A stretch of 64,000 nt of DNA, taken from positions 22,198,991-22,262,990 of the forward strand of contig CP136061.1 in assembly GCA_032622095.1 (NCBI GenBank), in the 5' to 3' direction. The notes beneath the pieces are model-generated. The model was not told the origin of the DNA. It was given only the letters and a program-made list of their open reading frames with translations, and ran no database searches. Both the position numbers and the translations under genes were made by a program. Below are positions 4,813 to 64,000 of this stretch, one piece after another; positions within the stretch are counted from its first letter, which is position 1, and each line of letters starts with the position of its first letter. This stretch comes from Siphonodentalium dalli (lineage: Eukaryota; Mollusca; Scaphopoda; Gadilida; Siphonodentaliidae).

Positions 4813-6366
4813 GTGAATAGTGTTCAGTGGAAAAGGACCAGTCAAACCGAAGAAGTGTTGATGACATTTGTGCCAAAGGACAGACTTCACGATCCTTCGT
4901 GTGGGAATGCAATAATTCAAGAGCTTCAGAAGTTAAAGGACTTTGATACTTATGAAGAGGTAAATGAAAATGGACAACAATGCATTTCTACATGCTGGGT
5001 ACTGACACAACGGGGAGCTGATGTCCGGGCCCGTTTAGTCGCCCGTGGATTTGAGGAGGAAGGTTTGACACAAAATGATTCACCTACTGTAAGCAAAGTA
5101 TCCATAAGACTATTCTTGACATTGGCAGTAAATAAAAAATGGAATGTTAAAACAACTGATATTAAGTCAGCGTTCCTCCAAGGAAAAAAATTGGAAAGGG
5201 AAGTCTTCATCAGACCTCCTAAAGAAGCTCAGACAGAAGGAAAAGTTTGGAAGTTGAAAACATGCTTGTATGGTTTAAAAGATGCAGCTCAGCAATTCTA
5301 CACAAGTGTTGTACATGAACTAAATCATCTTGGTTGTGAGTTATCTACACTAGATCCTTCTCTGTTCTACAAACGAGGAAAAGATGGTGAACTACAAGGA
5401 ATACTTCTCAGCCATGTGGATGACTTTCTTCATGCTGGTGATAAGGATTTTAACGAACATGTAATGGGTGGCTTGCGACAGCGTTTCCTAGCTGGAAAAG
5501 TAGAGGAGGTAACATTCACTTACGTTGGGTTCCACATTGAACAGAAAGCTGATGAAATAATTCTGCACCAGAATAACTATATTCATGGAGTAAGAGACAT
5601 TGAGTTACGTGCGGAAAGAGTTGCCTGCAAAAATGATGAATTAAGTATGAATGAATACACTGATCTGCGTTCTATTGTTGGAAGTCTAAATTGGATTGTG
5701 CAAGGGACAAGACCTGATTTGGCTTTTGAGTTAATAGAACTGAGCACTAAATTCAGAAAAGGTCAAGTTTGTGATCTGGCTAGAGCAGTGAAGATCATAT
5801 CAAGAGTGAAATCTGAGACAACATCAATTCGATTTCCATTCATGGGACTTCCTTTAGATGATAAGTGGAAATTAGTGGTTTTTACTGATGCTGCTTATGC
5901 AAATTTGCCTGATGGAATCAGCAGTACAATGGCATATGTTCTATTTGTCGTAAATCCAAATAAATTGAGCTGTCCTCTATCTTGGAACTGCCATAAGATA
6001 AAAAGAGTGGTGCGTTCAACATTGGCTGCCGAAGCAATGAGCTTGCAGGAAGGTGTCGAGGAGGCGATATATGTCAGGAAAGTGTTATGTGAATTGTGCA
6101 GTATCCAAGAGACAAAGATCCCCATTGTTGCCTATGTGGATAACAGGAGTGTGGTGGAAGCTGTGCACACAACTAAAATGGTTGATGATAAACGTCTTCG
6201 AATCGATATTGGTGCGATGAAACAATGTCTTGATCGAGGTGAAGTAGAAAGCATTCGATGGTGCCCAGGTTCGAGTCAGCTTGCCAATTGCCTAACAAAA
6301 CGAGGTGCTTCCGGCGAGCAGCTGATTGCTACATTCCAGAGAGGGAAAGTAGCAATTGACATTTAG
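4813..6366 (+). CDS. Ty1/Copia-type polyprotein, RT and RNase H part (5'-truncated)
   Basis: This is an open frame of about 517 codons with no internal stops. It begins inside the Pol polyprotein, so gag, protease and integrase are missing. Residues about 30-270 match the Copia RVT_2 reverse transcriptase: RLVARGF at 74-80, the catalytic TTDIKSAFLQG (Asp116), CLYGLKDAAQQ, and HVDDFLHAG (Asp203-Asp204), where Tyr of the usual YVDD is His. Residues about 350-500 match the Copia RNase H: FTDAAYA (Asp359), STLAAEAMS (Glu407), YVDNRSV (Asp443), and the ANCLTK tail. The first in-frame ATG (4861) lies within the domain and the frame opens at 4798 after a stop, so this is a deletion derivative rather than a gene with its own start. 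A purine-rich tract and LTR-like sequence follow at once. Relation to mollusc/crustacean GalEa-type Copia is plausible but unproven. Confidence 0.9.
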   Translation: MNSVQWKRTSQTEEVLMTFVPKDRLHDPSCGNAIIQELQKLKDFDTYEEVNENGQQCISTCWVLTQRGADVRARLVARGFEEEGLTQNDSPTVSKVSIRLFLTLAVNKKWNVKTTDIKSAFLQGKKLEREVFIRPPKEAQTEGKVWKLKTCLYGLKDAAQQFYTSVVHELNHLGCELSTLDPSLFYKRGKDGELQGILLSHVDDFLHAGDKDFNEHVMGGLRQRFLAGKVEEVTFTYVGFHIEQKADEIILHQNNYIHGVRDIELRAERVACKNDELSMNEYTDLRSIVGSLNWIVQGTRPDLAFELIELSTKFRKGQVCDLARAVKIISRVKSETTSIRFPFMGLPLDDKWKLVVFTDAAYANLPDGISSTMAYVLFVVNPNKLSCPLSWNCHKIKRVVRSTLAAEAMSLQEGVEEAIYVRKVLCELCSIQETKIPIVAYVDNRSVVEAVHTTKMVDDKRLRIDIGAMKQCLDRGEVESIRWCPGSSQLANCLTKRGASGEQLIATFQRGKVAIDI

Positions 6367-6438
6367 GAAAAATGGATGATAAGGACTGTATATTTGTCAA
6401 TATTTCTGTGGTTTTATCAAAAGAACTAAAACAACATA

Positions 6439-6630
6439 AAAAGAGGAAAGAGGGAGATTGTTGAGCTACAGTGTAATTAACATCAGTGAAACAGGAAGAG
6501 CTACAGTGTCATTAACATCAGTGAAACAGGAAGTGAACTCATGACCTGGAAATGACATCATGGACAGAAACAGCAGTTAGAGTTTGAATTGAAGTGAAGG
6601 AAGTCACAAGTGTGCTGTGGAGATATAATA
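6439..6630 (+). mobile_element. Copia polypurine tract and 3' LTR (partial)
   Basis: A purine run (AAAAGAGGAAAGAGGGAGA, about 6439-6457) lies 70 bp after the Copia stop. TGTTGAGCTACAGTG at 6459 starts with TG as an LTR should. An internal near-duplication, GAGCTACAGTGT(A/C)ATTAACATCAG, follows. The part at about 6566-6625 is repeated in inverted orientation upstream of the frame. The right end of the LTR was not fixed. Confidence 0.6.
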
Positions 6631-7137: not shown

Positions 7138-7655
7138 TAGATCATGCCATGAATCTCTACTCTGGCTAACGCCCGTAGAGATCATATTCCACCAGTACAA
7201 AACCTTGGATCTTTTTGAAGTTTTGACAGGGAACCTTATACAGTCGAGAACATAATGCGGGGAATATATTTCTTAGTTGTTATCTTTTCCTTAATAATGT
7301 ACTTCACTGTAGGCGAATTTCCCAACTCAAAATTGAATGCTTTTCTCTGACTTGTGAGCTGATATCGCAATAAACATCAAATTAATTACCCAGGAAAAAT
7401 GCCATAAGATTAAGTGTATGCGTCACGAAGCAATATCGCTCACAAATTCACTTAACTTTTGAGTTGGGACCTTCACCTACAGTGAAGTACATTATTAAGA
7501 AACAAATAATAACTAAGAAATATATACCCCGTGTTATTTTTCGACTTTATAAGGTTCCCTGTCAAAACTTCAAAAAGTTCCAAGGTTTTGTACTGGTGGA
7601 ATATGATCTCTACAGAACAGACGTTAGCCAGAGTAGAGATTCATGGCATGATCTA
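7138..7655. mobile_element. Mutator-like non-autonomous element with ~195-bp TIRs
   Basis: The left arm (7138-7332) and right arm (7457-7655) are inverted copies beginning TAGATCATGCCATGAATCTC. They continue with few differences to CCCAACTCAAAA, around a loop of about 124 bp. The flanks are the 9-bp direct repeat TATTCCCTC (7129-7137 and 7656-7664). Long TIRs with a 9-bp duplication are the Mutator/MULE pattern. The target was a 22-bp tandem repeat containing the same word, so the duplication is slightly less certain than in unique DNA. No coding capacity is seen. Confidence 0.8.
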
Positions 7656-23814: not shown

Positions 23815-24560
23815 ATGAATCCTCATCAGCGCATATCTCGGTGCATAAGCACTCACGATTCACAGCTGTTATTTTGGGTGTATAGATAAGTTGTAATACG
23901 CGCCTGCCCACGATGACCTTAACCCTTTACCCAACAAACCTTCCAAAACCGGCCAAATAAAGCTTCAACAGCCTAAAATATCTTCGGTCTGTCTCAATAG
24001 AACCATACAAATATGGATATCATTGGAACCGGCTCCTTGACCACATTGTGATAGTTACAGTTATGCCATGTGCCAATGCATTCTCTTATATATGCGAGTC
24101 GACCATAGGTCGCCTCGCATATATAAGAGAATGCATTGGCCTAAAAAAAATCTTTTTTTAACACTTTTTACCATTTTTTCTTACATTCTTTAACAATTTT
24201 ATAATTTTTAATGTGCTAAGCCAATGCATTCTCTTATATATGCGAGGCGACCTATGGTCGACTCGCATATTTAAGAGAATGCATTGGCACAGGGCCCTTC
24301 TGTTGGGTAAAGGGTTAATACAACATTTCTCTGGACTTCTCTGGCGGAGATTTGTTAACGTATGTCGGGCGTAAACAATTACGAAACATCGTGAATTGCC
24401 GATATATATCAAGTATAGTTCAGAAATATGTTCTTCTATGTGTAATTATAAATAGGTAGAAAAATACCATATATGCGATTTTGCACGGATAGAAACATTA
24501 ACATCTACTGATTGATTAACCTCACATTACTAAACAGCACGTTGCAACAGCAAAGCCATC
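23815..24560. repeat. unclassified dispersed repeat, copy 1 (split by piggyBac-like MITE)
   Basis: It starts with GCGCATATCTCGGTGCATAAGCACTCACGATTCACAGC and resumes after the MITE (24319 on) with ACATTTCTCTGGACTTCTC, matching the uninterrupted copies at 26362 and 28353. It ends near GTTGCAACAGCAAAGCCA. Function is unknown. Confidence 0.6.
23923..24314. mobile_element. piggyBac-like MITE, copy 2 (opposite orientation)
   Basis: TTAA at 23919-23922 and 24315-24318 flanks CCCTTTACCCAACA ends. It is the reverse complement of the copy at 8162, of the same 392-bp length, with both internal hairpins. It interrupts a dispersed repeat whose uninterrupted relatives in this window lack it, confirming a mobile unit. 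Confidence 0.92.
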
Positions 24561-27390: not shown

Positions 27391-27882
27391 TTTAAAGGTA
27401 CTCAATCCGATAAAAACTCCTCTCAATTACTATTTCAATGGCTTCGGGGGTCAAAAATATTTGATTCGAGTCGAGGAAGTCACCCATCAAAGCTCAGATT
27501 TGTTAGATATCGATTTTAGAAATCTATTATTTTTCATTATCGGGAATACTTTCTGGCCCAGAACACAGTCAAAATTGCGTTTTTATTACCACTTGATTTT
27601 AGAGTTATCCATCCTTGTCTATTTGAATAGTGTTTTGGTGTACACATCTCGAGCAGGTTACGAACTTGACGGCAATTATTAGTACTCATCTCGAGCAAAT
27701 AACAAATTTCAAAATTCAATATCTAATAACTCTGAGCTTTGTTTGATGGGTTCCTCGACTCGAATCAAATATATTATACCCCCAAAGCCAAAGAAATAGT
27801 AATATAGGACCCTCTGATCGGATTGTTGTTGTTGGAATCTGTTGAGATGGGGGACCCTCTGTTCGGATTGAGTACCTTTAAA
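27391..27882. mobile_element. CAATCCGA-ended MITE, copy 1
   Basis: TTTAAAGGTACTCAATCCGA at the left and TCGGATTGAGTACCTTTAAA at the right are perfect inverted ends. Inside are GTCGAGGAACCCAC-type and GAAGCCAAAGAAATAGTAAT words in both orientations. Five copies or parts occur in this window. The 116-codon frame at 27332 is incidental. Confidence 0.75.
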
Positions 27883-38760: not shown

Positions 38761-38762
38761 CA

Positions 38763-40463
38763 CGGGAGACGGAGGAAGCGAGGGGGAGTGTGAGTGACGG
38801 TATTGTGGCAGTACTGGAGACGGAGGAAGCGAGGGGGAGTGTGAGTGACGGTATTGTGGCAGTTCGGGAGACGGAGGAAGCGAGGGGGAGTGTGAGTGAC
38901 GGTATTGTGGCAGTATACGGGAGACGGAGGAAGCGAGGGGGAGTGTGAGTGACGGTATTGTGGCAGTTCGGGAGACGGAGGAAGCGAGGGAGAGTGTGAG
39001 TGACGGTATTGTGGCAGTATACGGGAGACGGAGGAAGCGAGGGGGAGTGTGAGTGACGGTATTGTGGCAGTACGGGAGACGGTGGAAGCGAGGGGGAGTG
39101 TGAGTGATGGTATTGTGGCAGTACGGGAGACGGAGGAAGCGAGGGAGAGTGTGAGTGACGGTATTGTGGCAGTATACGGGAGACGGAGGAAGCGAGGGGG
39201 GGGAGTGTGAGTGACGGTATTGTGGCAGTATACGGGAGACGGAGGAAGCGAGGGGGAGTGTGAGTGATGGTATTGTGGCAGTACGGGAGACGGAGGAAGC
39301 GAGGGAGAGTGTGAGTGACGGTATTGTGGCAGTACGGGAGACGGAGGAAGCGAGGGGGGTGTGAGTGACGGTATTGTGGCAGTATACGGGAGACGGAGGA
39401 AGCGAGGGGGAGTGTGAGTGACGGTATTGTGGCAGTATACGGGAGACGGAGGAAGCGAGGGGGAGTGTGAGTGACGGTATTGTGGCAGTACGGGAGACGG
39501 AGGAAGCGAGGGGGAGTGTGAGTGACGGTATTGTGGCAGTACGGGAGACGGAGGAAGCGAGGGGGAGTGTGAGTGACGGTATTGTGGCAGTACGGGAGAC
39601 GGAGGAAGCGAGGGGGAGTGTGAGTGACGGTATTGTGGCAGTACGGGAGACGGAGGAAGCGAGGGGGAGTGTGAGTGACGGTATTGTGGCAGTATACGGG
39701 AGACGGAGGAAGCGAGGGGGAGTGTGAGTGACGGTATTGTGGCAGTACGGGAGACGGTGGAAGCGAGGGGGAGTGTGAGTGATGGTATTGTGGCAGTACG
39801 GGAGACGGAGGAAGCGAGGGGGAGTGTGAGTGACGGTATTGTGGCAGTTCGTGAGACGAAGGAAGCGAAGGGGAGGTGAGTGACGGTATTGTGGTAGTAT
39901 GGGAGACGGAGGAAGCGAAGGGGAGTGTGAGTGACGGTATTGTGGCAGTACGGGAGACGGGGGAAGCGAAGGGGAGTGTGAGTGACGGTACTGTGGCAGT
40001 ACGGGAGACGGTGGAAGCGAGGGGGAGTGTGAGTGACGGTATTGTGGCAGTACGGGAGACGGTGGAAGCGAGGGGGAGTGTGAGTGACCGTATTGTGGCA
40101 GTTCAGGAGACGGAGGAAGCGAAGGGGAGTGTGAGTGACGGTATTGTGGCAGTTCTGGAGACGGAGGAAGCGAGGGGGAGTGTGAGTGACGGTATTGTGG
40201 CAGTACGGGAGACGGGGGAAGCGAAGGGGAGTGTGAGTGACGGTATTGTGGCAGTACGGGAGACGGTGGAAGCGAGGGGAATGTGAGTGACCGTATTGTG
40301 GCAGTTCAGGAGACGGAGGAAGCGAAGGGGAGTGTGAGTGACGGTATTGTGGCAGTTCTGGAGACGGAGGAAGCGAAGGGGAGTGTGAGTGACGGTATTG
40401 TGGCAGTACGGGAGACGGAGGAAGCGAAGGGGAGTGTGAGTGACCGTATTGTGGCAGTTCATA
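38763..40463. repeat. 51-bp minisatellite, array 1 (~33 units)
   Basis: Unit: GGGAGACGGAGGAAGCGAGG, then GGGAGTGTGAGTGACGG, then TATTGTGGCAGTAC. A 51-bp period means one 17-codon repeat (SVSDGIVAVRETEEARG) stays in frame, giving frames such as 39467-39727 and 39876-40286. Units with an extra TA (CAGTATACGGG, 53 bp) break the frame. Variant order (TTCGGG, TATACGGG, TTCAGG, ACGGTGG units) is shared with array 2. Confidence 0.97.
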
Positions 40464-40781
40464 TGTGACCCGCGATATAAAATCCAGTCGTAAGTCGGGA
40501 TTTGTTTACCCTGTGCCAATGCATTCTCTTATATATGCGAGTCGAACATATGCCGAGAATGCATTGGCCTAACAATTTTTTACAATTTTAATAATTTTTT
40601 CTTGTATTCTTTAACAATTTTATAATTTCACCCATACAGAGCCCCAGACAAACATGAGCAGACGACACTCTTCTATATGCTTCTATATATGTGTGGGGCT
40701 CCCTGCAGGGTAATGGATGTTTTTTATTTTATGTCCTAAAAATTGTAAGAAATATTTATTTTAAAAAAAATGATAAAAAAA
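40464..40781. mobile_element. left half of the TGTGACCC-ended MITE (duplicated copy)
   Basis: Identical or nearly so to 44055-44374 but cut at ATAAAAAAATG, where the second GA-rich tract begins. It is the internal junction of a tandem segmental duplication, not an independent insertion. Confidence 0.85.
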
Positions 40782-41173
40782 TGTAAAGAGATAGAGTGAG
40801 AGAATGGGGGAGACAAAGGATATATAGGGAGCGAGAATGAGATGGGAGGGAAAAAGAGAGAATGCGAGAGAGAGAGAGAGATGAAAGAAGAGTGAGATAT
40901 AGAATAGAGAGGAAAAGAGAGATATTGAGAGATGGGAAATAGGAGGGAGAGATTTAGAGGGAGAGAGAGAGACAAAGAGAGAGATAGGGAGAGAGAACAC
41001 GGGAGAGAGAGAGATAGAGAGAGAGAGAGCACATGAGAGAGAGACCACGAGATAGTGAGAGAGAGAGAGCACGACAGAGAGAGTGATAATAAAGTGGAAA
41101 AGAGAGATATTGAGAGATGGGGAAATAGGAGGGAGAGATCTAGAGGGAGATATAGATAGAGTTGGAATGAGAA
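40782..41173. repeat. GA-rich low-complexity tract, copy 2
   Basis: Repeats 38361-38760 starting at TGTAAAGAGATAGAGTGAG. It marks the start of the second duplicated block. Confidence 0.95.
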
Positions 41174-41175
41174 CA

Positions 41176-44054
41176 TGCACGGGAGACGGAGGAAGCGAGG
41201 GGGAGTGTGAGTGACGGTATTGTGGCAGTACTGGAGACGGAGGAAGCGAGGGGGAGTGTGAGTGACGGTATTGTGGCAGTTCGGGAGACGGAGGAAGCGA
41301 GGGGGAGTGTGAGTGACGGTATTGTGGCAGTATACGGGAGACGGAGGAAGCGAGGGGGAGTGTGAGTGACGGTATTGTGGCAGTTCGGGAGACGGAGGAA
41401 GCGAGGGAGAGTGTGAGTGACGGTATTGTGGCAGTATACGGGAGACGGATGAAGCGAGAGGGAGTGTGAGTGACGGTATTGTGGCAGTACGGGAGACGGT
41501 GGAAGCGAGGGGGAGTGTGAGTGATGGTATTGTGGCAGTACGGGAGACGGAGGAAGTGAGGGAGAGTGTGAGTGACGGTATTGTGGCAGTATACGGGAGA
41601 CGGAGGAAGCGAGGGGGAGTGTGAGTGACGGTATTGTGGCAGTACGGGAGACGGAGGAAGCGAGGGAGAGTGTGAGTGACGGTATTGTGGCAGTACGGGA
41701 GACGGAGGAAGCGAGGGGGTGTGAGTGACGGTATTGTGGCAGTATACGGGAGACGGAGGAAGCGAGGGGGAGTGTGAGTGACGGTATTGTGGCAGTATAC
41801 GGGAGACGGAGGAAGCGAGGGGGGTGTGAGTGACGGTATTGTGGCAGTACGGGAGACGGAGGAAGCGAGGGGGAGTGTGAGTGACGGTATTGTGGCAGTA
41901 CGGGAGACGGAGGAAGCGAGGGGGAGTGTGAGTGACGGTATTGTGGCAGTACGGGAGACGGAGGAAGCGAGGGGGAGTGTGAGTGACGGTATTGTGGCAG
42001 TACGGGAGACGGAGGAAGCGAGGGGGAGTGTGAGTGACGGTATTGTGGCAGTACGGGAGACGGAGGAAGGGAGGGGGAGTGTGAGTGACGGTATTGTGGC
42101 AGTACGGGAGACGGAGGAAGCGAGGGGGAGTGTGAGTGACGGTATTGTGGCAGTATGGGAGACGGAGGAAGCGAAGGGGAGTGTGAGTGACGGTATTGTG
42201 GCAGTACGGGAGACGGAGGAAGCGAGGGGGAGTGTGAGTGACGGTATTGTGGCAGTACGGGAGACGGAGGAAGCGAGGGGGAGTGTGAGTGACGGTATTG
42301 TGGCAGTTCGTGAGACGAAGGAAGCGAAGGGGAGGTGAGTGACGGTATTGTGGTAGTATGGGAGACGGAGGAAGCGAAGGGGAGTGTGAGTGACGGTATT
42401 GTGGCAGTACGGGAGACGGGGGAAGCGAAGGGGAGTGTGAGTGACGGTATTGTGGCAGTACGGGAGACGGTGGAAGCGAGGGGGAGTGTGAGTGACGGTA
42501 TTGTGGCAGTACGGGAGACGGTGGAAGCGAGGGGGAGTGTGAGTGACGATATTGTGGCAGTACTGGAGACGGAGGAAGCGAGGGGGAGTGTGAGTGACGG
42601 TATTGTGGCAGTTCGGGAGACGGAGGAAGCGAGGGGGGAGTGTGAGTGACGGTATTGTGGCAGTATACGGGAGACGGAGGAAGCGAGGGGGAGTGTGAGT
42701 GACGGTATTGTGGCAGTTCGGGAGACGGAGGAAGCGAGGGAGAGTGTGAGTGACGGTATTGTGGCAGTATACGGGAGACGGAGGAAGCGAGAGGGAGTGT
42801 GAGTGACGGTATTGTGGCAGTACGGGAGACGGTGGAAGCGAGGGGGAGTGTGAGTGATGGTATTGTGGCAGTACGGGAGACGGAGGAAGCGAGGGAGAGT
42901 GTGAGTGACGGTATTGTGGCAGTATACGGGAGACGGAGGAAGCGAGGGGGAGTGTGAGTGACGGTATTGTGGCAGTATACGGGAGACGGAGGAAGCGAGG
43001 GGGAGTGTGAGTGATGGTATTGTGGCAGTACGGGAGACGGAGGAAGCGAGGGAGAGTGTGAGTGACGGTATTGTGGCAGTACGGGAGACGGAGGAAGCGA
43101 GGGGGTGTGAGTGACGGTATTGTGGCAGTATACGGGAGACGGAGGAAGCGAGGGGGAGTGTGAGTGACGGTATTGTGGCAGTATACGGGAGACGGAGGAA
43201 GCGAGGGGGAGTGTGAGTGACGGTATTGTGGCAGTACGGGAGACGGAGGAAGCGAGGGGGAGTGTGAGTGACGGTATTGTGGCAGTACGGGAGACGGAGG
43301 AAGCGAGGGGGAGTGTGAGTGACGGTATTGTGGCAGTATGGGAGACGGAGGAAGCGAAGGGGAGTGTGAGTGACGGTATTGTGGCAGTACGGGAGACGGA
43401 GGAAGCGAGGGGGAGTGTGAGTGACGGTATTGTGGCAGTACGGGAGACGGAGGAAGCGAGGGGGAGTGTGAGTGACGGTATTGTGGCAGTTCGTGAGACG
43501 AAGGAAGCGAAGGGGAGGTGAGTGACGGTATTGTGGTAGTATGGGAGACGGAGGAAGCGAAGGGGAGTGTGATTGACGGTATTGTGGCAGTACGGGAGAC
43601 GGGGGAAGCGAAGGGGAGTGTGAGTGACGGTATTGTGGCAGTACGGGAGACGGTGGAAGCGAGGCGGAGTGTGAGTGACGGTATTGTGGCAGTACGGGAG
43701 ACGGTGGAAGCGAGGGGGAGTGTGAGTGACCGTATTGTGGCAGTTCAGGAGACGGAGGAAGCGAAGGGGAGTGTGAGTGACGGTATTGTGGCAGTTCTGG
43801 AGACGGAGGAAGCGAGGGGGAGTGTGAGTGACGGTATTGTGGCAGTACGGGAGACGGGGGATGCGAAGGGGAGTGTGAGTGACGGTATTGTGGCAGTACG
43901 GGAGACGGTGGAAGCGAGGGGAATGTGAGTGACCGTATTGTGGCAGTTCAGGAGACGGAGGAAGCGAAGGGGAGTGTGAGTGACGGTATTGTGGCAGTAC
44001 GGGAGACGGAGGAAGCGAAGGGGAGTGTGAGTGACCGTATTGTGGCAGTTCATA
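41176..44054. repeat. 51-bp minisatellite, array 2 (~56 units, higher-order)
   Basis: Same unit as array 1. The marker sequence CAGTACTGGAGACGG then CAGTTCGGGAGACGG appears at about 41227 and again at about 42559, and the unit order between them is repeated. Array 2 thus holds an extra ~1.33-kb higher-order copy relative to array 1. The frame 41778-42338 runs 186 codons of the 17-residue repeat. Confidence 0.97.
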
Positions 44055-44499
44055 TGTGACCCGCGATATAAAATCCAGTCGTAAGTCGGGATTTGTTTAC
44101 CCTGTGCCAATGCATTCTCTTATATATGCGAGTCGAACATATGCCGAGAATGCATTGGCCTAACAATTTTTTACAATTTTAATAATTTTTTCTTGTATTC
44201 TTTAACAATTTTATAATTTCACCCATACAGAGCCCCAGACAAACATGAGCAGACGACACTCTTCTATATGCTTCTATATATGTGTGGGGCTCCCTGCAGG
44301 GTAATGGATGTTTTTTATTTTATGTCCTAAAAATTGTAAGAAATATTTATTTTTAAAAAAATGATAAAAAAATGTTAGGCCAATGCATTCTCTTAATATA
44401 TACGAGGCGACCTATGGTCGACTCGTATATATAAGAGAATGCATTGACACAGGGTAAATAAATCACGACTTACGACTGGATTTGATATGGCGGGTCACA
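44055..44499. mobile_element. TGTGACCC-ended MITE with hairpin core
   Basis: TGTGACCCGCGATATAAAATCC...TACCCTGTGCC at the left and GGCACAGGG-like...GGATTTGATATGGCGGGTCACA at the right are inverted ends. The core (GCCAATGCATTCTCTTATAT hairpins, AT-rich spacer) is the one found in the piggyBac-like MITEs, but the ends differ. A segment ACCCATACAGAGCCCC...GGGGCTCCCTGCAGGGTAAT sits in the spacer. Confidence 0.8.
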
Positions 44500-45603: not shown

Positions 45604-45992
45604 GTACACATTGTGCTTATATCTGGTAAATCGCGAAAGACGAAAATCTCGCCATTGTCCATGCATTGTCGTATTCAGTAGTCATAATCGAGAGTTGCGA
45701 ACCCCCTCCCCCCGCCTCATATTGTACTATTAAACACGTTATTTCGTCCTGGATTTACATACCAAGAGAATTAACGGCGAAGGACAAATTGGCCCTTGCC
45801 TCAAATGAACCAACCGTCCACGTGGTGAAACCTCCATGAACCGCGTCGCAGCTTGTGGGTTAAACCAATACTAACCACAATGACGGCCCGTAATTAACGA
45901 TTAACACAACAAGATAGTTAACGGCGAAGGACATGCGATAAAATGGTCCTTGTCTCAAATGAATCCATTTAATAGAAAGGGTTATTTTGTTT

Positions 45993-46257
45993 ATTTATTA
46001 TTTATTTATTTGTGTTTAACGTCGGTTTCAGTAACCATGGTTATCTCACGACGTTGCCAGTGTTATTGGTGGAGGGAAAGTCCGTGCACTAAGGTAAATC
46101 ATGCAGTGATTCCATTGGCTGGAAGATTGACCTATTGTGCCCGGCGAAACCTGGACCATCGGCGAGTAATTGGCAACTCCCCCATATAGAGATATGGGGT
46201 ACAAATTCAGCGATAGCTCCACCGAGAATTGAACGCATAACGCCAACGTCGTGAAAC
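45993..46257 (-). mobile_element. SINE, V-SINE/RUDI-like, copy 1
   Basis: On the minus strand: a B-box-like GCGTTCAATTCTCGG, GGGGGAGTTGCCAATTACTCGCCGATGG, CTTCCAGCCAATGGAATCACTGC, TAGTGCACGG, then GACGTTAAACACAAATAAATA as the 3' tail. The same order is seen at 47715-47940 on the plus strand. The GACGTTAAACAC tail is common in mollusc SINEs. Confidence 0.8.
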
Positions 46258-46276
46258 ATGGCATGGTAGCTATCAG

Positions 46277-46865
46277 CAGGGTTAGCGATGCCCTTGCCAA
46301 ATTTGCCAATGGCAAAAATAATTCACATTTGGCAAAAAATATTTTCATTTGGCAAAAGTTTTGGCAAGTCACTTTTTAATTCCTCAAGAAAGTTGAAAAA
46401 TATTGATCAATCAATATCATTCATTTCAGGAAACTCTTACAACATAATTATATTAGTGGTCTTTTATAAGGTTTAGTAAAGGTTCACCTCTATATATTAA
46501 GATAGTTAATCTCATAGCATTAGTACCGATGGTTGGAGGGTTTACTAGTATTTAGTGTGGTGGTAGTGTTTACATAGATAATTATCCTGTGATGTGCCCT
46601 TCTGGTGAAGCAACCCTTCTGCCATTGTATTGCCCGGAGATTGGCTTATTGTTAGATGATAAACCACAATAGAGATGCGAGTATAATTAATTATTAACTA
46701 ACTGCTTTCCTATCGATATCAAAAGTCGTTCAAACCGCGAGTGTCGAAACATAAGACATAAGGTTGCAGAAAATGATACTATCAGGGACAGCATCTGGCA
46801 AATGCTAAAATAATTTGGCAAAAATATTTTTATTTGGCAAATTATTTGATCCAGCGCGGACCCTG
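46277..46865. mobile_element. hAT-like MITE with TTGGCAAA words (tentative)
   Basis: Ends CAGGGTTAGCGATGC and (reverse) CAGGGTCCGCGCTGG, each followed inward by multiple TTTGGCAAA words. 8-bp flanks do not match clearly. Confidence 0.4.
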
Positions 46866-47327
46866 CCTATATATCAGTAAAGTACATCGGGGTTAAACGC
46901 GTCGCAGCTCGAGGGTTAAACTGGGTTAAACCAATGCTAACCACAATGACATTTAATTTTAAAGAAGACCAGTGAGACGACTGACGATAGATATATCAGA
47001 TATGCGAACCGAATAAGCAACGTGAATAGAGGTAAGATAATGACTGCGCGCGCACACAATGTAACTTCTGTTTACCTAGTCTTAACGCCCACGACACAGA
47101 TTTGTGTTGTAAAATTAATTCTATAGACACACCGACGACAATCCTTCGTTATACATATGCGTTCAGTCGTCCACGTGGGCCTGATTTGGGTTAATTTATT
47201 TATATATAGTCCCATTTACCCTGGAGGTATACATTACATATATTTGTGTATGCGCACATGCGCATCTGCACATAAATTTAAGTTACGATATATATTTATT
47301 GTTGACGAAACAGTGTTCTTTAACCCT

Positions 47328-47470
47328 TTCTAATGGGGCCTCGGTCGGTCAGCCGGTAATGTGGTCTGGTCCAGACCGACTCGCTCTCCAGCGTTGGCGA
47401 TATGGGTTCAATTCCCAGTGGAGCCATCGCTGAATTTGTATCTCATATCGCTATCCAAACTCCATGCAGC
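47328..47470 (+). mobile_element. tRNA-derived SINE head, copy 2 (truncated)
   Basis: GGGCCTCGGTCGGTCAGCCGG (A-box side), a long variable-arm-like middle, then GGGTTCAATTCCCAG (B box) and TGGAGCCATCGCTGAATTTGTA, which is also in SINE copy 1. The body and GACGTTAAAC tail are missing. Confidence 0.6.
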
Positions 47471-47714
47471 GCCCTCTACATTACCACTGCGATAGAACAC
47501 TGCCGCGGAAGGATGGTACTTTGCGGACCGATACATATATTTGTACGTATCGTCGGAACTATATTTAGTAATCTATTATCTTATTTTGACGACCAAAAGT
47601 TAGCATTTATGGTCATTATTTTGGTATTGACAAGAATAATATGAACTGAGCCAGATATATAGGCAATTTTAATCCTAAAACATTAGAACTAAGAACATGT
47701 AAGAAATCCTTACC

Positions 47715-47940
47715 ACATGTCCTTGTGGCGGTGGTATCTCAGCGGAGCGATGAGAGATAACTCTGCCTGGAGTTTGATCGCTATCTGGGGGAGTTGCCAA
47801 TTACTCGCCGATGATCCGGGTTCGCCGGTACAATGGGTCATTCTTCCAGCCAATGGAAATCACTGCTACATTTACCTCAGTGCACGGCTGCTGCTGAAAG
47901 CGACGTTAAACACCAATAAACAAATAATAAATAAAAATAT
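47715..47940 (+). mobile_element. SINE, V-SINE/RUDI-like, copy 3
   Basis: GTATCTCAGCGGAGCGATGAG, GGGGGAGTTGCCAATTACTC, TTCCAGCCAATGGAAATCACTGC, CAGTGCACGG, GCGACGTTAAACACC and an AATAAACAAATAATAAATAA tail. It has tail and body but a diverged head. Confidence 0.8.
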
Positions 47941-48308
47941 AACATTATATAATTCATTATATTTACATACTAAGTGTGATTATCACAAAATCCAGCATTC
48001 TGATTGGTCGGCGCCCACGTGGCTAGTTGCAATTATTTCTCGGTGAACGCGCAACAGTTCATAACTGCAGCCTCATAATTACATCGACGCGTCATAGGTT
48101 TTGGAAAGAACAACGCGTAATGTTTTGGGCGCATTTGGACTCGCGCAGGATTGACTTAATAAATCATCGGGTTTCAATATAAAGAGAAATTGTTCCTGTT
48201 AACTTTTGCCAAGGGTGCTATGGGATATTTTGGGCTGGTTTTGTCACGATACACTTTTCGATTTAAATACATTTACAAAAGTGGCTTTTTCGCTAAATGT
48301 ATATAAAT

Positions 48309-49857: not shown

Positions 49858-50262
49858 TAGTTACGTCCCGTTCTCGGTAGTTATACGTCCCGTTCTCGGT
49901 AGTTATACGTCCCGTTCTCGGTAGTTATACGTCCCGTTCTCGGTAGTTACGTCCCGTTCTCGGTAGTTATACGTCCCGTTCTCGGTAGTTACGTCCCGTT
50001 CTCGGTAGTTACGTCCCGTTCTCGGTAGTTATACGTCCCGTTCTCGGTAGTTATACGTCCAGTTCTCGGTAGTTATACGTCCCGTTCTCGGTAGTTACGT
50101 CCCGTTCTCGGTAGTTATACGTCCCGTTCTCGGTAGTTACGTCCCGTTCTCGGTAGTTACGTCCCGTTCTCGGTAGTTATACGTCCCGTTCTCGGTAGTT
50201 ATACGTCCCGTTCTCGGTAGTTATACGTCCCGTTCTCGGTAGTTATACGTCCCGTTTTCGGT
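49858..50262. repeat. 20/22-bp minisatellite, ~19 units
   Basis: Units TAGTTATACGTCCCGTTCTCGG (22 bp) and the AT-less form TAGTTACGTCCCGTTCTCGG (20 bp) are interspersed. Sequence is otherwise nearly invariant, with two single changes near 50053 and 50256. Confidence 0.95.
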
Positions 50263-53525: not shown

Positions 53526-55503
53526 TCAGTCCAATATAAACCTATGTGAATATTTAGGTCCTATATAAACATATGTGAATATTTAGGTCCAATATAAACC
53601 TATGTGAATATTTAGGTCCAATATAAACCTATGTGAATATTTAGGTCCAATATAAACCTATGTGAATATTTAGGTCCAATATAAACATATGTGAATATTT
53701 AGGTTCAATATAAACATATGTGAATATTTAGGTCCTATATAAACATATGTGAATATTTAAGTACAATATAAACCTATGTGATTATTTAGGTCCTATATAA
53801 ACCTATGTGAATATTTAGGTCCTATATAAACCTATGTGATTATTTAGGTCCAATATAAACTTATGTGAATATTTAGGTCCTATATAAACCTATGTGATTA
53901 TTTAGGTCCAATATAAACCTATGTGAATATTTAGGTCCAATATAAACATATGTGAAGTTTTAGATCCTATATAAACCTATGTGATTATTTAGGTCCAATA
54001 TAAACCTATGTGAATATTTAGGTCCAATATAAACCTATGTGATTATTTAGGTCCAATATAAACATATGTGAATATTTAGGTCCTATATAAATCTATGTGA
54101 TTATTTAGGTCCAATATAAACTTATGTGAATATTTAGGTCCTATATAAACCTATGTGAATATTTAGGTCCTATATAAACCTATGTGATTATTTAGGTCCA
54201 ATATAAACTTATGTGAATATTTAGGTCCTATATAAACATATGTGATTATTTAGGTCCAATATAAACCTATGTGAATATTTAGGTCCAATATAAACATATG
54301 TGAATATTTAGGTCCTATATAAACCTATGTGATTATTTAGGTCCTATATAAACCTATGTGATTATTTAGGTCCAATATAAACCTATGTGAATATTTAGGT
54401 CCAATATAAACATATGTGAATATTTAGGTCCTATATAAACCTATGTGATTATTTAGGTCCAATATAAACCTATGTGATTATTTAGGTCCAATATAAACTT
54501 ATGTGAATATTTAGGTCCTATATAAACTTATGTGAATATTTAGGTCCTATATAAACCTATGTGATTATTTAGGTCCAATATAAACTTATGTGAATATTTA
54601 GGTCCTATATAAACCTATGTGAATATTTAGGTCCTATATAAACCTATGTGATTATTTAGGTCCAATATAAACCTATGTGAATATTTAGGTCCAATATAAA
54701 CATATGTGAATATTTAGGTCCTATATAAACCTATGTGATTATTTAGGTCCAATATAAACCTATGTGAATATTTAGGTCCTATATAAACCTATGTAAAATT
54801 ATTTAGGTCCAATATAAACTTATGTGAATATTTAGGTCCTATATAAACCTATGTGATTATTTAGGTCCTATATAAACCTATGTGAATATTTAGGTCCTAT
54901 ATAAACCTATGTGAATATTTAGGTCCAATATAAACCTATGTGAATATTTAGGTCCTATATAAACCTATGTGATTATTTAGGTCCAATAAAAACTTATGTG
55001 AATATTTAGGTCCTATATAAACCTGTGAATATTTAGGTCCAATATAAACTTATGTGAATATTTAGGTCCTATATAAACCTATGTGATTATTTAGGTCCAA
55101 TATAAACCTATGTGAATATTTAGGTCCTATATAAACCTATGTGATTATTTAGGTCCAATATAAACTTATGTGAATATTTAGGTCCTATATAAACCTATGT
55201 GATTATTTAGGTCCAATATAAACCTATGTGAATATTTAGGTCCTATATAAACCTATGTGATTATTTAGGTCCAATATAAACTTATGTGAATATTTAGGTC
55301 CTATATAAACCTATGTGATTATTTAGGTCCAATATAAACATATGTGAATATTTAGGTCCAATATAAACCTATGTGATTATTTAGGTCCAATATAAACCTA
55401 TGTGAACATTTAGGTCCAATATAAACCTATGTGAATATTTAGGTCCAATATAAACCTATGTGAATATTTAGGTCCAATATAAACCTATGTGAATATTTAG
55501 GTC
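53526..55503. repeat. 29-bp satellite, ~68 units
   Basis: Unit TATAAACCTATGTGAATATTTAGGTCCAA. Variation is concentrated at a few positions: GAATATTT/GATTATTT, CCAATAT/CCTATAT, and CCTATG/CTTATG/CATATG. Combinations recur in order (for example the 58-bp doublet of a GATT-CCAATAT unit with a CTT-GAAT-CCTATAT unit), indicating higher-order structure. Confidence 0.97.
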
Positions 55504-55506
55504 CTA

Positions 55507-57585: not shown

Positions 57586-57590
57586 GACTA

Positions 57591-57735
57591 ATGGGGATTT
57601 CAGCAATGCAGCACCGAGTCGCGATTGGCAACTTCGAAAAAAAAAAAATATATATAATCCCAAAAGGATTAAATATTCGACTGTCACTGATACTTCTCGT
57701 TATAATGACGCTCCTTCTAATGTCGGGATCAGTTC
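57591..57735 (+). pseudogene. LINE 5' coding part, interrupted by a foldback element
   Basis: The frame contains a strongly hydrophobic segment (LSLILLVIMTLLLMSG) and stops being LINE-like at the insertion. The coding sense resumes in frame at 59004-59287 once one copy of the duplicated ATCAGTTC is discounted, where SVHSNPGP and then an endonuclease domain follow. Hydrophobic stretch plus NPGP is typical of the start of ORF2 in CR1/L2-like LINEs. The NPGP tail recalls 2A-type sequences but lacks the Asp and Glu of the DxExNPGP consensus. The upstream ATG at 57591 is only a candidate start. Confidence 0.65.
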
Positions 57736-57758
57736 GGTTACGTAGCGTTTTTCCGAAG

Positions 57759-58000
57759 ACCCATAACTCCGAAGGTCCGATTCTCCGAAGGTCAGATTCT
57801 CCGACGCCCCGATTCTCCGAAAGCCCATAACTCCGAAGTCCCGATTCTCCGAAATCCCATAACTCCGAAGACCCATAACTCCGAAAGCCCATAACTCCGA
57901 AGGCCTATAACTCCGAACGCCCATAACTCCGAAGGTCAATAACTCCGAAGGGCCGATTCTCCGAAGGTCCGATTCTCCGAAGGTCCGATTCTCCGAAGAT
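57759..58000. repeat. 16-bp subrepeats, left foldback arm
   Basis: About 15 units share CTCCGAAG. Two unit types alternate irregularly: ATAACTCCGAAGGCCC and GATTCTCCGAAGGTCC. The open frames in both strands (SYG/ENR repeats) exist because 16 nt cycles through all three phases. Confidence 0.92.
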
Positions 58001-58033
58001 CATGTTTTATCGCTTATTAAATAGTGTACAGTC

Positions 58034-58320
58034 CAGTGGCGGGGTCAATGGGGCCCTAGGGAAGACCGCCCCCAAAAACATGTCAAATGTCATGTAAACG
58101 TCAGGAAATCCCTCCTAGGCATTCAAATATTCACAGTGTTCCTGCCCAGGGGAGCCCCCGGACCAACGATTGGGGGCGACCCCTCCCATGTATGCGCTCC
58201 CCAAATCAGGCCTTCGTGATATGCTTTCGGCATATCATATGCATGATATAATCCCCCACAAATCCCCCACATATGCTAATTAATGTGCACCCCTAAATGG
58301 GAACCCTGGCTCCGCCACTG
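58034..58320. mobile_element. CAGTGGCG-ended segment in left foldback arm
   Basis: CAGTGGCGGGGTC...ACCCTGGCTCCGCCACTG has hAT-style CAGTGGCG termini. A diverged, shorter inverted counterpart sits at 58472-58662. No 8-bp duplication is clear. It either inserted before the palindrome formed or is a structural part of the element. Confidence 0.5.
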
Positions 58321-58471
58321 GTGTGCACCGGGTATATTATAACGAAACGCTGCAAGAATGTCAGAGTAGCCTAACATGCACAGGGGCGACAAGTTCTTCC
58401 CCGTTCACCCCTGTACATTATACTCTGGCATCTCATGGGCCAACGTAACGTTATAGTATCTGGTGTATAGT

Positions 58472-58662
58472 CAGTGGCGGGCCAGGATTCCCATTTAGGT
58501 GGGGGCAGTAGGAAAAGTTTGAATATTTTGATGCCCCATGTCGATTTCCGGGCGTTTACATGACATTGGCCATGTTTTGGTAGGGGCCCATATTGTCTGA
58601 AATAGCAAGTAGAGGTTTAATGGGGGCAGTGGGAATTTTGGGACCCCTTGGCTTCGCCACTG
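58472..58662. mobile_element. CAGTGGCG-ended segment in right foldback arm
   Basis: CAGTGGCGGGCCAGG...CCTTGGCTTCGCCACTG. In reverse complement it shares AATGTCATGTAAACG and CCTAAATGGGAA(C/T)CCTGG with the left-arm segment, but about 100 bp are missing. Confidence 0.5.
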
Positions 58663-58701
58663 GACTGTATACTATTTAGTAAACGATAATACCCCGATAA
58701 A

Positions 58702-58988
58702 ACAAAATCTTCGGAGAATCGGACCTTCGGAGAATCGGACCTTTGGAGTTATGGGCCGTCGGAGAATCGGGCCTTCGGAGTTATAGGTCTTCGGAGAATC
58801 GGCCCTTCGGAGTTATAGGTCTTCGGAGTTATAGGTCTTCGGAGAATCGGCCCTTCGGAGTTATGGGCTTTCGGAGAATCGGATCTTCGGAGTTATGGGC
58901 CGTCGGAGAATCGGGTCTTCGGAGTTGTGGGCCGTCGGAGAATCGGGTCTTCGGAGTTGTGGGCCTTCGTAGTAATAGGTCTTCGGAA
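58702..58988. repeat. 16-bp subrepeats, right foldback arm
   Basis: Inverted counterpart of 57759-58000: CTTCGGAG followed by TTATGGGC/TTATAGGT or AATCGGAC/AATCGGGC. About 18 units; unit order is not the mirror of the left arm, so the arms have evolved separately. Confidence 0.92.
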
Positions 58989-59003
58989 AACCGGTCTGAC
59001 ACC

Positions 59004-59287
59004 ATCAGTTCACAGTAATCCAGGACCCCCTCAGACCAACACAACAAAGGAAATAACCATTTTTCAATATAATATTCGTAGCATCAGAAATAAGCTAGAA
59101 AAATTAGTTGACTCCATAAACGAGTATGACATCTTATGTTTCACCGAAACCCACCTCGACCAATCTTATTCTACAGAAAAACTATTAATTGAACATTGCA
59201 GCTCCCCATTTAGATCAGACCGAAATTCAGATGGCGGGGGTGTTTGCATTTATTTTGCTGAACACCTAGGTCCGAATCGGCATCTCT
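59004..59287 (+). pseudogene. LINE AP-endonuclease N-terminal fragment
   Basis: After the foldback duplication the LINE frame continues through SNPGPP and a Thr/Gln-rich linker into an endonuclease domain: ITIFQYNIRSIRNKLEKL (the N.RS...K motif), DILCFTETHLD (Glu of the metal-binding TE motif), and SDGGGVCIYFAEH. The domain is lost at about 59287, where TGGTTTAGAC and the dyad array begin. Later endonuclease motifs and the RT are absent from the following sequence. The piece is therefore cut on both sides by other elements. Confidence 0.75.
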
Positions 59288-59660
59288 GGTTTAGACTAGG
59301 TTTTATTCTAAACCAGGTTTAACTCCAGTTTAAACTAGGTTTAAGTAGGGTTTAAACTTGGTTTTACAGTAGTTAAACCAGGTTTATGGGAGTAAAACTG
59401 GGTTTTAGTGTACTTAAACCAAGTTTTGTGATAAACTCAGTTTAAGTTGAAACTAGGTTTTATTAACGTGATAAAGTTATGGTAATATTACTAATTGTTT
59501 GTGGTGAATTGGCTATATAATCATCAGTATAAGCTTAGGTATATATGATTTATACGTACCATACGTCTCGCCTCGAACATACACCTTTAAATATACTTTG
59601 AAAAAAATTCAAAGTTAAACCACCCTACCCCAGGTTTGACTAAAACCTAGTTTTTTGGGT
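59288..59660. promoter_or_regulatory. phased array of AAACNNNGTTT dyads upstream of the HARBI1-type gene
   Basis: Exact AAACNNNGTTT dyads start at 59310, 59332, 59354, 59375, 59395, 59416, 59433 and 59450, a one-mismatch copy at 59293, and another exact one at 59643. Spacings are 17, 22, 22, 21, 20, 21, 17 and 17 bp, mostly near two helical turns. ACTAGGTTTTA(T/G)TC near 59297 is inverted near 59640. It is probably the subterminal region of the Harbinger element, that is transposase or Myb-like protein binding sites. It could also be an independent MITE. Confidence 0.55.
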
Positions 59661-59830
59661 TTATTTATTTGGCCGATATTTTTCGCCCAATATTGATGTT
59701 GTTCTTCGTGAATATGGGAGTGTTTCTGTTGAATTGGGGGAGGCGTTTATGCTCGGGTAGTTTTGCCACTCAATATTCCTGTGCAGTTTTCTGTACTTAT
59801 GAGAACACTTCTGACAAATAGGCCAGTGTG

Positions 59831-60889
59831 ATGGATGCTTTTTTGCAATATAGGTTTTACGATTCGCTCGTTCGGAGGTCACTTTGGCGCCAAAGAGCAT
59901 GGAGGGATCGGACTGATCCATTTGACACATTCGACGACGTTGATTTTAAACGACGTTATCGATTCACCAAGGAGTCAACTCGAGAAATTATTCGCTTGGT
60001 AGAAAATGACCTGCAGAGTAGCTATGGAAGACCGACTGATATGCCGCCATTTCTACAGGTGCTACTTGCGCTGCGTTTTTTTGCGACGGGGAGCTTCCAA
60101 ATGGTTGTTGGAGATTTATGCAACGTCAGCCAGTCAACAACTTGTGAATCAGTTCACAAAGTTTCGAGGGCTCTAGCCAGTAGACGGGAAGAGTACATAA
60201 AAACGCCTTTACCAGAAGAATTCCCGGAAATTGTGAAAGGATTTTACGATATGTTCGGATTTCCACATGTCATCGGAGCTGTTGACTGCACTCACGTGCG
60301 AATTTGCGGTCCCGGGGGCGATGAAGCAGCACGGTTTATCAACAGAAAGGGCTATACATCTATCAACGTGCAGTGCATATGTGATTCTCAACTTAAAATA
60401 TGGAACATTGTCGCTCGGTGGCCAGGCAGCACGCACGATGCAAGAATATTTGACAACAGCGTGGTATGTCGAGAAATGGAGGATTTAACTTGTCAGGCAT
60501 TTTTGATTGGGGATCATGGGTACGCCTGCATGCCATTTCTAATGACACCTCACCGTGACCCAACGACTCGAGCTGAGCGTGCTTTCAATATTTCTTTATC
60601 CAGGACGAGGACAGTTATTGAACGGACATTTGGGTCAATGAAACGCAGGTTTCCGTGTCTCAAGTTCATGCAAACAAAGGTTGAAAATACGCTGCCGATT
60701 ATAGTTGCTGTTGCTGTCTTGCACAACCTGGCGATACAGTTATCAGATACACTTCCCGACGAAGACGATGAACACGAAGATGTTGACGAAGATACTGACG
60801 ACGCCTCATTCGTTCGATTGGATCTACCGGACAACGCTGATGGGGCTGGTGTTAGGGAGGCAGTTGTAGAGAATTATTTCTCTAATTGA
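59831..60889 (+). CDS. HARBI1-like PIF/Harbinger transposase, intact
   Basis: The frame of 352 codons from ATG 59831 (the upstream GTG in frame is not needed) is close to the usual ~350 residues of HARBI1. Residues about 40-120 are helical, with the FFATGSFQMVVGDLCNVSQST helix-turn-helix region. The DDE_4 nuclease core follows: GAVDCTHVRI (Asp152), RWPGSTHDARIF (Asp203), GDHGYA (Asp228) and RTVIERTFGSMKRRF (Glu264), so the catalytic DDE set is complete. The C-terminus is acidic (DEDDEHEDVDEDTDD) and ends shortly after. No intron or stop interrupts it. A convergent coiled-coil exon lies 60 bp downstream, as in two-gene Harbinger elements, and a dyad array lies upstream. It could be an active transposase or a recently inactive copy; domestication cannot be judged from one locus. 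Confidence 0.92.
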   Translation: MDAFLQYRFYDSLVRRSLWRQRAWRDRTDPFDTFDDVDFKRRYRFTKESTREIIRLVENDLQSSYGRPTDMPPFLQVLLALRFFATGSFQMVVGDLCNVSQSTTCESVHKVSRALASRREEYIKTPLPEEFPEIVKGFYDMFGFPHVIGAVDCTHVRICGPGGDEAARFINRKGYTSINVQCICDSQLKIWNIVARWPGSTHDARIFDNSVVCREMEDLTCQAFLIGDHGYACMPFLMTPHRDPTTRAERAFNISLSRTRTVIERTFGSMKRRFPCLKFMQTKVENTLPIIVAVAVLHNLAIQLSDTLPDEDDEHEDVDEDTDDASFVRLDLPDNADGAGVREAVVENYFSN

Positions 60890-61196: not shown

Positions 61197-61746
61197 CTGA
61201 AAAAAGTCAAGAATATGACATGAAATAAAGCGTTTATATAATCGACGACATAACGACAAATGGACACAATGTCGGTAAATGTCGGTAAATGCGCAAACAT
61301 ATAAAAGTATGTAAAAACAACACCACTGAAAAGAGTCAAACCATCAACATGGAGAAATATATCCAGTGTACACAAAACTGTTACAGTAATAAATTCAAAA
61401 ATTGTAGTCTGAATGTGACTTTCAAATACTTTGCAATGGTTTGGCATTTTCTAATGTTTACCGTCAAGGATTGATTAAACTCTGGTCTCATATTGGACTT
61501 TTTTTTTACTGTAACAGTAATGTTTACAGAACAATGATTTTGACATATGTTATCTCATTACTGGAGTGCTATTAATAATAGAAGTAAGAATAAATTCTAT
61601 AAAGTTCTTCGTGCAAGTACCTGTAAGTTGTAGATGTTAGTTGATGTATAGACTTGTATGTTAATTCGCATAAGACGACTTTGAAGATTTTGTGTCCCTT
61701 TAACCATTCCACTTCGGGAGCTGTGCTCGTGCAGCGTTACATATAC

Positions 61747-61926
61747 TGTGCCAGTGATTCTCTTATATATGCGAGTCTCCCAAATGGAACCTCGCATATA
61801 TAACATAATGTGCTGGCTTATATTACATGATCAATGTTAATAGTGTTAGGCTAATGCGTTCTCTTATATATGCGATGTTCCCTGTGCATGGAAAACTCGC
61901 ATATATAAGAGAATGCATTCGCGCAG
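61747..61926. mobile_element. diverged MITE with two GCCAATGCATTCTC-type hairpins
   Basis: TGTGCCAGTGATTCTCTTAT...ATATAACATAATGTGCTGGC and GGCTAATGCGTTCTCTTATA...ATAAGAGAATGCATTCGCGCAGGG are two hairpins with the same outer words as the piggyBac-like core but different loops. No TTAA/CCCTTTACCC ends are present. Confidence 0.6.
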
Positions 61927-62187
61927 GGTTTTCGAAATTTTTTTTAGAAAGCTCTAATCATGGAAAGATTAAAAATACACGGTCCTATTTTATATCACAT
62001 TGTTCAAACTTTCATAAGGTCAATTTGAGCTTAACAGCCAAATGTAACAAGAACAATACTTGAAATTGACGTAATTTGTGTTACGGAAAACGAGTAGAAA
62101 TGGCACAAATTCAAAACATGGTAGATCATACTCTTTTGAAAGTCGAAACTTGTCCATCATATTAGTGGGCGTAGCATTTTGCTCTAA

Positions 62188-62461
62188 TCTCATATATATT
62201 TTGAAGACCTCTGTCTGTTTGTTTGTCTGTATGTTTGTCTGTATGTTTGTCTGTCATTGATACAAATCTACGATTCTCGACCGATCGGGACGAAACTTGG
62301 TACGTGTGTGTAGTTTGACCAGGCGGGGGACGTTGTCGTATTGGCGATCCCGTGCGGCGCCCGCTTCGCGCATGCGCAGACGAGATCTCGGAAACGGGTG
62401 GAGCTATCGACTTGAAATTTGGTTTTTGAATAGCCCGGACAACGTCGGGCTCATCGGCTAG
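62188..62461 (+). mobile_element. short non-autonomous Helitron
   Basis: The 5' end TCTCATATATAT follows an A, and the 3' end CTAG is followed by T, so it sits between A and T as Helitrons do. A hairpin AGCCC...GGGCT (62432-62451) lies 6 nt before CTAG. Inside are a (TGTT/TGTC)n run, then TCGACCGATCGGGACGAAAC and CGCATGCGCAGACGAG. No Rep/helicase. The end motifs are diagnostic as a set. Confidence 0.85.
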
Positions 62462-62464
62462 TTA

Positions 62465-64000
62465 GATATATAGTATATGATATAGAAAGCGTTACAAGTG
62501 GTTTTATGGTTTTAAATCGGACAGGCCATATTTAAAGAGACCATGTCCGATTTGACACAATAGAACCACCAGCTGTTGGTATTAATATACCATTTAATAA
62601 TCAGATTGAACACATGAGTTCATAAATAGGAGGTTTTGATGGTTTAATATTGACTTTCAAAAAAGGAATTGTTTTTTATTTTTATTAGCCTAGCAAAAAT
62701 TCCAACGATCTCAACTAACAAAGAGCTCATGCCGCCGAAAGCGGTATATGATAACGAGCGTTCTCAATTATGATATTTATGGTAGTTTTCAAATATTACT
62801 TATGGATATTTTTGTGGATTTTCCCGATGCCTCTGTATCATGCGAATGTGGTGGTTTCAAGTTATTTTAATATATGTTTTGTCCCCAAAGCGAAAAATTG
62901 GCGTAGAAAGTTCTGAATTATTTGGCATCAAATCGGATGGCATCTTTAAATGTTGACGTGGTACAGCGAGGAGTCGACAACACTACTTCGGTAATTGACC
63001 GCTATTAGTCAACTTATTATCTTGCCCGGAAAGCTATTGGAAGTATGCACATGTTTATTCAACTTATAAACTTGGATAGTTAACAAATTATCTCGATTGG
63101 CTACTTTTATTGATTTGGTGTATAAACTTAACCGACTCAATTACACCAGTAATAATAAATACTGTACTAAGTAATCGACAAACGGGTACGGTACCTCTAT
63201 TAATCAAGTAGACTGTAGCAGTATATACATATCTATATACATGTATAGAAGGTCTCCGTCAGCGTGCCCAAATTAAAATTTCCAACTGCAGCCCCTTGAA
63301 ACGAACCGAATTCCCGGTCTAAACCACTTTACTCCTTGGTTTAGATCCAACTTGCACCTCTATTTTTCAAGGGTTTCAATCGTTGCAAATTTTCAAACTT
63401 TCGCCAGCATATATATGGTTGGCATTTTTTTTTTTTTACAAATGATGGACATTTCAGTCCAAACATAAGTACGAAACTATTATACTATTGATAACACAAA
63501 ATACAATTCACACACAATACTGACTTATGGAGAATGAATACATCAGGACGATTTTAACCGATATTCGGTCTGATATTCTCAACTGCTTTATGTCAATCAT
63601 AGTTTTGATAACCGTTCAACATCCTGAACAAAGTTTGGGGTCAGACCTAGTTCCTGTTGCCTCGCCACTGGGCTACGTTGAATGTTCTAGTTATTGCCTA
63701 TACCATCAATGTAAGCAAGATGAATAGGCGTGTTCAGTTTGAACCGATCGATTTTTGCACCGTGCATCACATACATGCCAAAATAATGCAAGGTACATAT
63801 CATAGATGGGAATGAAACTAAATTGAGCTGTAAGCTCAATCTAAAGGGGGCCTATTTGAGCTAGTTGCGATATAAAACTATACAGGGTATGGATATTAGG
63901 TTAAGCCGAATACATTTGGAGAGCGGGCTAGAGCTTAGATGATAGAAGTTAGCTATTGTTAAAAAGATGTGTCTGATTAAATGAGTGGTGAACTCGGACG
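62465..64000. other. no gene recognised
   Basis: AT-rich. GGTCTAAACC...GGTTTAGATCC at 63316-63348 could be the far end of the element starting near 59288 (TGGTTTAGAC shared in inverted orientation). A 66-codon frame at 63527 is unrecognised. Confidence 0.3.

Follow-up and report, generated by a model that had tools for sequence, protein, structure and literature searches.

The window, i.e. the whole stretch of 64,000 nucleotides analysed from the scaphopod Siphonodentalium dalli, contains a LINE that is interrupted by a near-complete palindrome of 1268 bp (57736-59003), which has an exact copy of ATCAGTTC on either side and no unique middle. Each half of this palindrome starts on the outside with 13 terminal bases, followed by 13 bases identical in both halves (TTTTCCGAAGACC). 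The 16-bp units come next as an array, and an inner domain, a MITE-like module and a half-core follow further inward. The coordinates of these parts and of the neighbouring features are collected in Table 1.

Table 1. Features of the palindromic element and of the interrupted LINE (positions in the window)
Feature	Position	Strand	Remark
LINE frame, 5' part: hydrophobic stretch and start of GSVHSNPGP	57588-57734	+	
ATCAGTTC, left target-site duplication	57728-57735		
Left terminal 13 bp	57736-57748		mirrored at the right end in only 7/13
Left outer array of 16-bp units: 15 full ones (8 A, 7 B), followed by a partial one	57752-57991	+	
Left inner domain	58002-58033	+	28/32 aligned bases mirrored
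Left MITE-like module, 287 bp, CAGTGGCG...CGCCACTG	58034-58320	+	
Central core, itself palindromic	58321-58471		53/66 aligned bases
Right MITE-like module, 191 bp	58472-58662	-	mirror position and orientation
Right inner domain, partial unit at outer edge	58663-58715	-	
Right outer array of 16-bp units: 17 full ones (9 A, 8 B)	58716-58987	-	
Right terminal 13 bp	58991-59003		poorly mirrored
ATCAGTTC, right target-site duplication	59004-59011		
LINE SVHSNPGP and N-terminal part of endonuclease	59005-59268	+	PF03372, E 9.5e-7; end near 59268 by eye
PIF/Harbinger-type transposase of second element interrupting the LINE downstream	59822-60889	+	PF13359 DDE_Tnp_4, E 2e-31

The palindrome was assessed by aligning the left half with the reverse-complemented right half, which gave a score of 446, while none of 200 dinucleotide shuffles exceeded 43.5. 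This result bore out the initial annotation, in which a 1268-bp palindrome bounded by ATCAGTTC had been described. For the non-tandem inner part alone the mirror score was 124, with a shuffle maximum of 41.5 and a direct-strand control of 38.5. The single-stranded element together with its duplications was predicted to fold into one long hairpin with a minimum free energy of -410 kcal/mol, a value without a shuffle control at that length. The outer ends of the element start with GGT, and the terminal 13 bp agree at 7 positions (about 3 by chance), so that a strict terminal inverted repeat is absent.

The identity between the two arms was similar across the modules, i.e. 215/253 for the arrays, 28/32 for the inner domains, 119/145 for the MITE-like modules and 53/66 for the core, all of these values leaning high because the alignments were optimised. 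Since chimeric reads or clones are able to produce mirror designs, an inverted chimera of one arm, arisen in the assembly, was considered as a source of the palindrome; it was given practically no credence, since differences between the arms affect roughly 12-20% of the aligned bases depending on the module, and extend to the number of units and to large indels.

The 16-bp subrepeats that had been reported for the outer arms were counted as 15 full units in the left arm and 17 in the right one. Two discrete types can be told apart among them: 17 units belong to type A (TCCGAAGRCCCATAAC) and 15 to type B (TCCGAAGGTCCGATTC). Unit identity is 83-90% within a type and 61-62% between the types, with similar values within and between the arms. 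A pattern of two adjacent units was found at 11 places in the window, all of them inside the two arrays. Read from the ends inward, the unit order is ABBBABAAAAAABBB in the left arm and AABABABABAABABABB in the right arm, respectively. The mirror agreement of these orders is weak, being reached by 177 of 2000 permutations; a strict mirror order is thus unsupported, and turnover has probably taken place in the arrays after the separation of the arms.

When the insert and one copy of ATCAGTTC were removed, the two flanks gave a single reading frame across the junction (...LSLILLVIMTLLLMSGSVHSNPGPPQTNTTKEITIFQYNIRSIRNKL...), just as had been proposed on discounting one duplicate. The rejoined frame reads LSLILLVIMTLLLMSGSVHSNPGP and then NIRSIRNKL...TETHLD, and runs from a hydrophobic stretch through GSVHSNPGP into an endonuclease, with the 8-bp repeat spanning the S-V codons of SVHSNPGP. 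The downstream piece was matched by Pfam Exo_endo_phos over profile positions 2-78 of 225, as in LINE endonucleases, and the 5' piece had no Pfam match. For the endonuclease piece, 5 pattern matches were obtained in viral contigs, with 0 confirmed as relatives, and none was obtained among solved structures at E up to 0.1. The net gain at the site is 1276 bp, i.e. 3n+1, and the LINE frame is therefore shifted and broken, which contradicts the initial annotation of an element inserted in frame.

The duplication is identical at 8/8 positions at this one site and adjoins both ends of the element. In the window ATCAGTTC occurs three times on the plus strand and not on the other one, and it is the longest word common to both 51-bp junction windows. 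The 8-bp word alone is weak evidence, because 125 of 3000 random window-pair draws (pairs closer than 500 bp being scored as no match) shared 8 bases somewhere in 51 bp. This frequency, together with the richness of the window in tandem arrays (57 rows), would suit an array and palindrome that had grown in place within the LINE and are not mobile, the 8-bp repeat being due to chance; such growth was judged very improbable, given the placement of ATCAGTTC exactly at both palindrome ends and the rejoining of the LINE frame within one motif, by which the case for insertion holds. The LINE is older than the insert, and the order of events that had been read from the 8-bp repeat and the rejoined frame stands.

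The motif SVHSNPGP behind the hydrophobic stretch resembles, in sequence, the StopGo/2A motif, and no activity is claimed for it. Compared with the consensus D[V/I]ExNPGP, it shows two departures. According to PMC4981915, this consensus occurs in non-LTR retrotransposons and, together with a signal sequence, in sea urchin proteins. At the E position, H is described as active in viral variants in PMC12846837, and S at the D position is absent from the variants named in section 14 of the same source.

About 260 bp downstream (boundary by eye), the same LINE is cut by a PIF/Harbinger-type element (59268-60889), which has subrepeats of ~22 bp near its start (59309-59427). The 3' end of this element was not found. 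For the remainder of the LINE, the interval 61300-64000 was examined, in which 26 stop-free frames have a length of 45 codons or more. Neither a reverse transcriptase nor an endonuclease was detected in the 10 frames that were run against Pfam, which gave 5 matches in 4 frames, each under the curated cut-off, and no further LINE piece was recognised by eye in the other 16.

Several other repeats were recorded in the window. A second long-armed element (7138-7655), with arms of about 200 bp and 178/194 aligned bases mirrored, lies within a 22-bp minisatellite and has TATTCCCTC on both sides, which is no independent sign of a duplication because the minisatellite itself holds TATTCCCTC. A Copia reverse-transcriptase frame (PF07727, 4.9e-29) is located at 4749-6625 between perfect inverted arms of 58 bp (4749-4806 and 6568-6625, respectively). 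Tandem arrays were found at 38762-44049 (51-bp unit, 102 copies), 53529-55504 (29-bp unit, 68 copies) and 49862-50262 (22-bp unit, about 19 copies), and inverted repeats at 24065-24295, 27426-27803, 44055-44499 and 45981-47943, with arms of 36 to 113 bp that are 83-96% identical.

The coding content of the palindromic element was examined through its open reading frames. Of the stop-to-stop frames with 120 aa or more, only one reaches into the element, and in it the right-arm repeats run into the LINE. The stop-free frames with 60 codons or more that touch the element number 10, and a Pfam search of these (E up to 0.1) gave no match to a transposase, in agreement with the initial annotation of an element without transposase. 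Two of the 10 frames had Pfam matches, one to the LINE endonuclease and the other, a repeat frame, under the curated cut-off; the match of the right-arm repeat frame to Fibrinogen_BP (2.6e-5) reached 23.1 bits against a cut-off of 50 bits, and was taken as a result of repeat composition. Scans of the window for tRNA and for Rfam families (at the gathering level) gave 0 and 0 matches, respectively.

Further copies were searched for in the window and in viral contigs. With the element itself masked, no second copy was found in the window at E up to 1. The 16-bp array was absent from the viral contigs of a non-eukaryotic collection, in which 1 isolated word pair was seen; this pair was rejected as a relative and attributed to chance, as it formed no array and, with BLAST at E up to 1, was not matched to the element.

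The palindrome, the arrays, the 8-bp repeat, the rejoined LINE frame and the lack of a recognisable transposase inside the element are the observations on which the following interpretation was based. The structural class is foldback-like, as judged by the long inverted arms made of short tandem units and by the target-site duplication at the ends, the latter at one site only. The element is very probably a foldback-like DNA transposon of the non-autonomous kind, mobilised in trans and inserted into the LINE; against this explanation stand its single copy in the window, the lack of a strict terminal inverted repeat and the weak mirror agreement in the order of A and B units. The element has most likely been mobile: a transposase encoded elsewhere would move it in trans by binding to the arrays of 16-bp units and cutting at the ends, and insertion into the LINE copy would leave the 8-bp target duplication.

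As for the source of this transposase, the P superfamily (Galileo-like) or the hAT superfamily, rather than a Mutator-like element, was regarded as unlikely. Duplications of 8 bp are usual for hAT elements, and the inner modules end in CAGTGGCG, which is hAT-like. The outer ends of the element, however, begin with GGT and not with CAG, and the duplication, available from one site only, departs from the hAT pattern nTnnnnAn at the seventh position. In favour of a P-type source, long repetitive arms are present in Galileo, a member of the P superfamily, as described in PMC3688188. The 8-bp duplication fits Mutator-like elements, for which 8-11 bp are given in PMC6446971, and fits others as well. 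By analogy, a Mutator/Phantom-like source was proposed tentatively, as quite possible and short of probable, because foldback structure arises in several superfamilies according to PMC3169594. The array repeats of Galileo contain sites that were bound by the DNA-binding domain of a transposase in a test reported in PMC3688188. The 16-bp units of the present element may, on the model of Galileo, be transposase binding sites.

Sea urchin TU elements possess an outer domain of about 15-bp tandem repeats, an inner domain and an 8-bp duplication, and their modular middles are made of other repeat families. The present element is like them in its short outer repeats, its inner domain, its 8-bp duplication and a modular middle made of other repeats. 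The element was also compared with Tm1, a Mutator/Phantom foldback family of root-knot nematodes with asymmetric ends and units of 13-15 bp, as described in PMC3169594. In both systems the arms are composite and built of short tandem units, of 13-15 bp in Tm1 and 16 bp here, whose number is unequal between the arms. Both also have asymmetric terminal motifs outside the inverted repeat, a feature weaker here with its partly mirrored ends (7/13). The 8-10-bp duplications given for Tm1 in that source (45 of 53 elements) include the 8 bp found here, and a non-autonomous Tm1 member of 1080 bp is of similar size to the present 1268 bp. The differences are that Tm1 duplications are most often 9 bp, that mirrored MITE modules are not among the Tm1 features reported in the available text of PMC3169594, and that no transposase was recognised in this copy, a Phantom transposase being expected of an autonomous member of that family. 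When the Tm1 unit was compared with the units of the element, shuffles scored as well in 261 of 2000 cases for B and in 630 of 2000 for A; kinship by unit sequence was thus rejected, and the resemblance to Tm1 is one of design and not of sequence.

Galileo of Drosophila (PMC3688188) has likewise long arms with tandem repeats, and differs in carrying a P-type transposase, which would have a THAP domain, none being recognised in this copy. Tetris of D. virilis, as presented in PMC4079207, is modular, has long tandem-repeat arms and 8-10-bp duplications and is without transposase, but its units are of about 220 bp as against 16 bp here. The FB/Galileo-like design suggested in the initial annotation was retained as far as foldback-like, and modified in that the poorly mirrored ends and the short units look more like Tm1 than FB/Galileo. 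The accompanying statement that descriptions of such elements are scarce beyond insects and some other groups is only half right: alongside a midge, foldbacks of sea urchin, rye and Arabidopsis are listed in PMC4079207, and those of nematodes are described in PMC3169594. The design of the element is of a known kind, and only its mirrored MITE-like modules merit further study.

The two modules have the same mirrored flanks and a mirrored orientation, and end in CAGTGGCG. The window contains 5 copies of this word, against 0.66 expected by chance and with a count of 5 in none of 100 shuffles, and the module ends account for 4 of these copies. The fifth CAGTGGCG (63663-63670, minus strand) may be a solitary end from the MITE-like family of the modules. 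The best match of the modules elsewhere in the window, outside the element, reached only E 0.13. The modules are identical at 120 of 140 aligned columns, or at 119 of 145 with other gap costs (82-86%). By eye, a possible 6-bp target repeat TATACA was seen at the right module and a less clear one, TGTACA/TGTGCA, at the left module. The matching inner segments noted initially contain these mirrored modules.

Because of the large indels between the modules (287 and 191 bp), separate insertions of one family into each arm, at the same mirrored target of a palindrome that was already present, are possible, and by eye the flanking target, TGTACA/TATACA, also forms a palindrome or comes close to one. 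This separate entry is rather doubtful in view of the shared position and mirrored orientation of the modules and of a divergence close to that of the surrounding arms. On the same grounds of position, orientation and arm-like divergence, the simplest history is probably that a module was captured once and that one half was then duplicated in reverse. In such a history, a MITE-like module would have entered one half, the half would have been copied in reverse into a full palindrome, the arrays would have turned over, and the element would later have inserted into the LINE.

The element adds a foldback sequence for which no match in print was found by searching literature text with three of its unit strings, a weak test because papers seldom print such strings. 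A wider proposal, speculative and more doubtful than not, is that the foldback was formed when one entire half, together with its captured MITE, was duplicated in reverse, and not by gradual lengthening of terminal repeats, and that the types A and B, discrete in both arms, would be separate binding sites for transposase or host factor. Foldbacks are proposed in PMC3169594 to evolve by gradual expansion of their terminal repeats. The mirrored modules may serve as a marker of palindrome growth, and in this copy they speak for the duplication of an entire half as against such terminal expansion.
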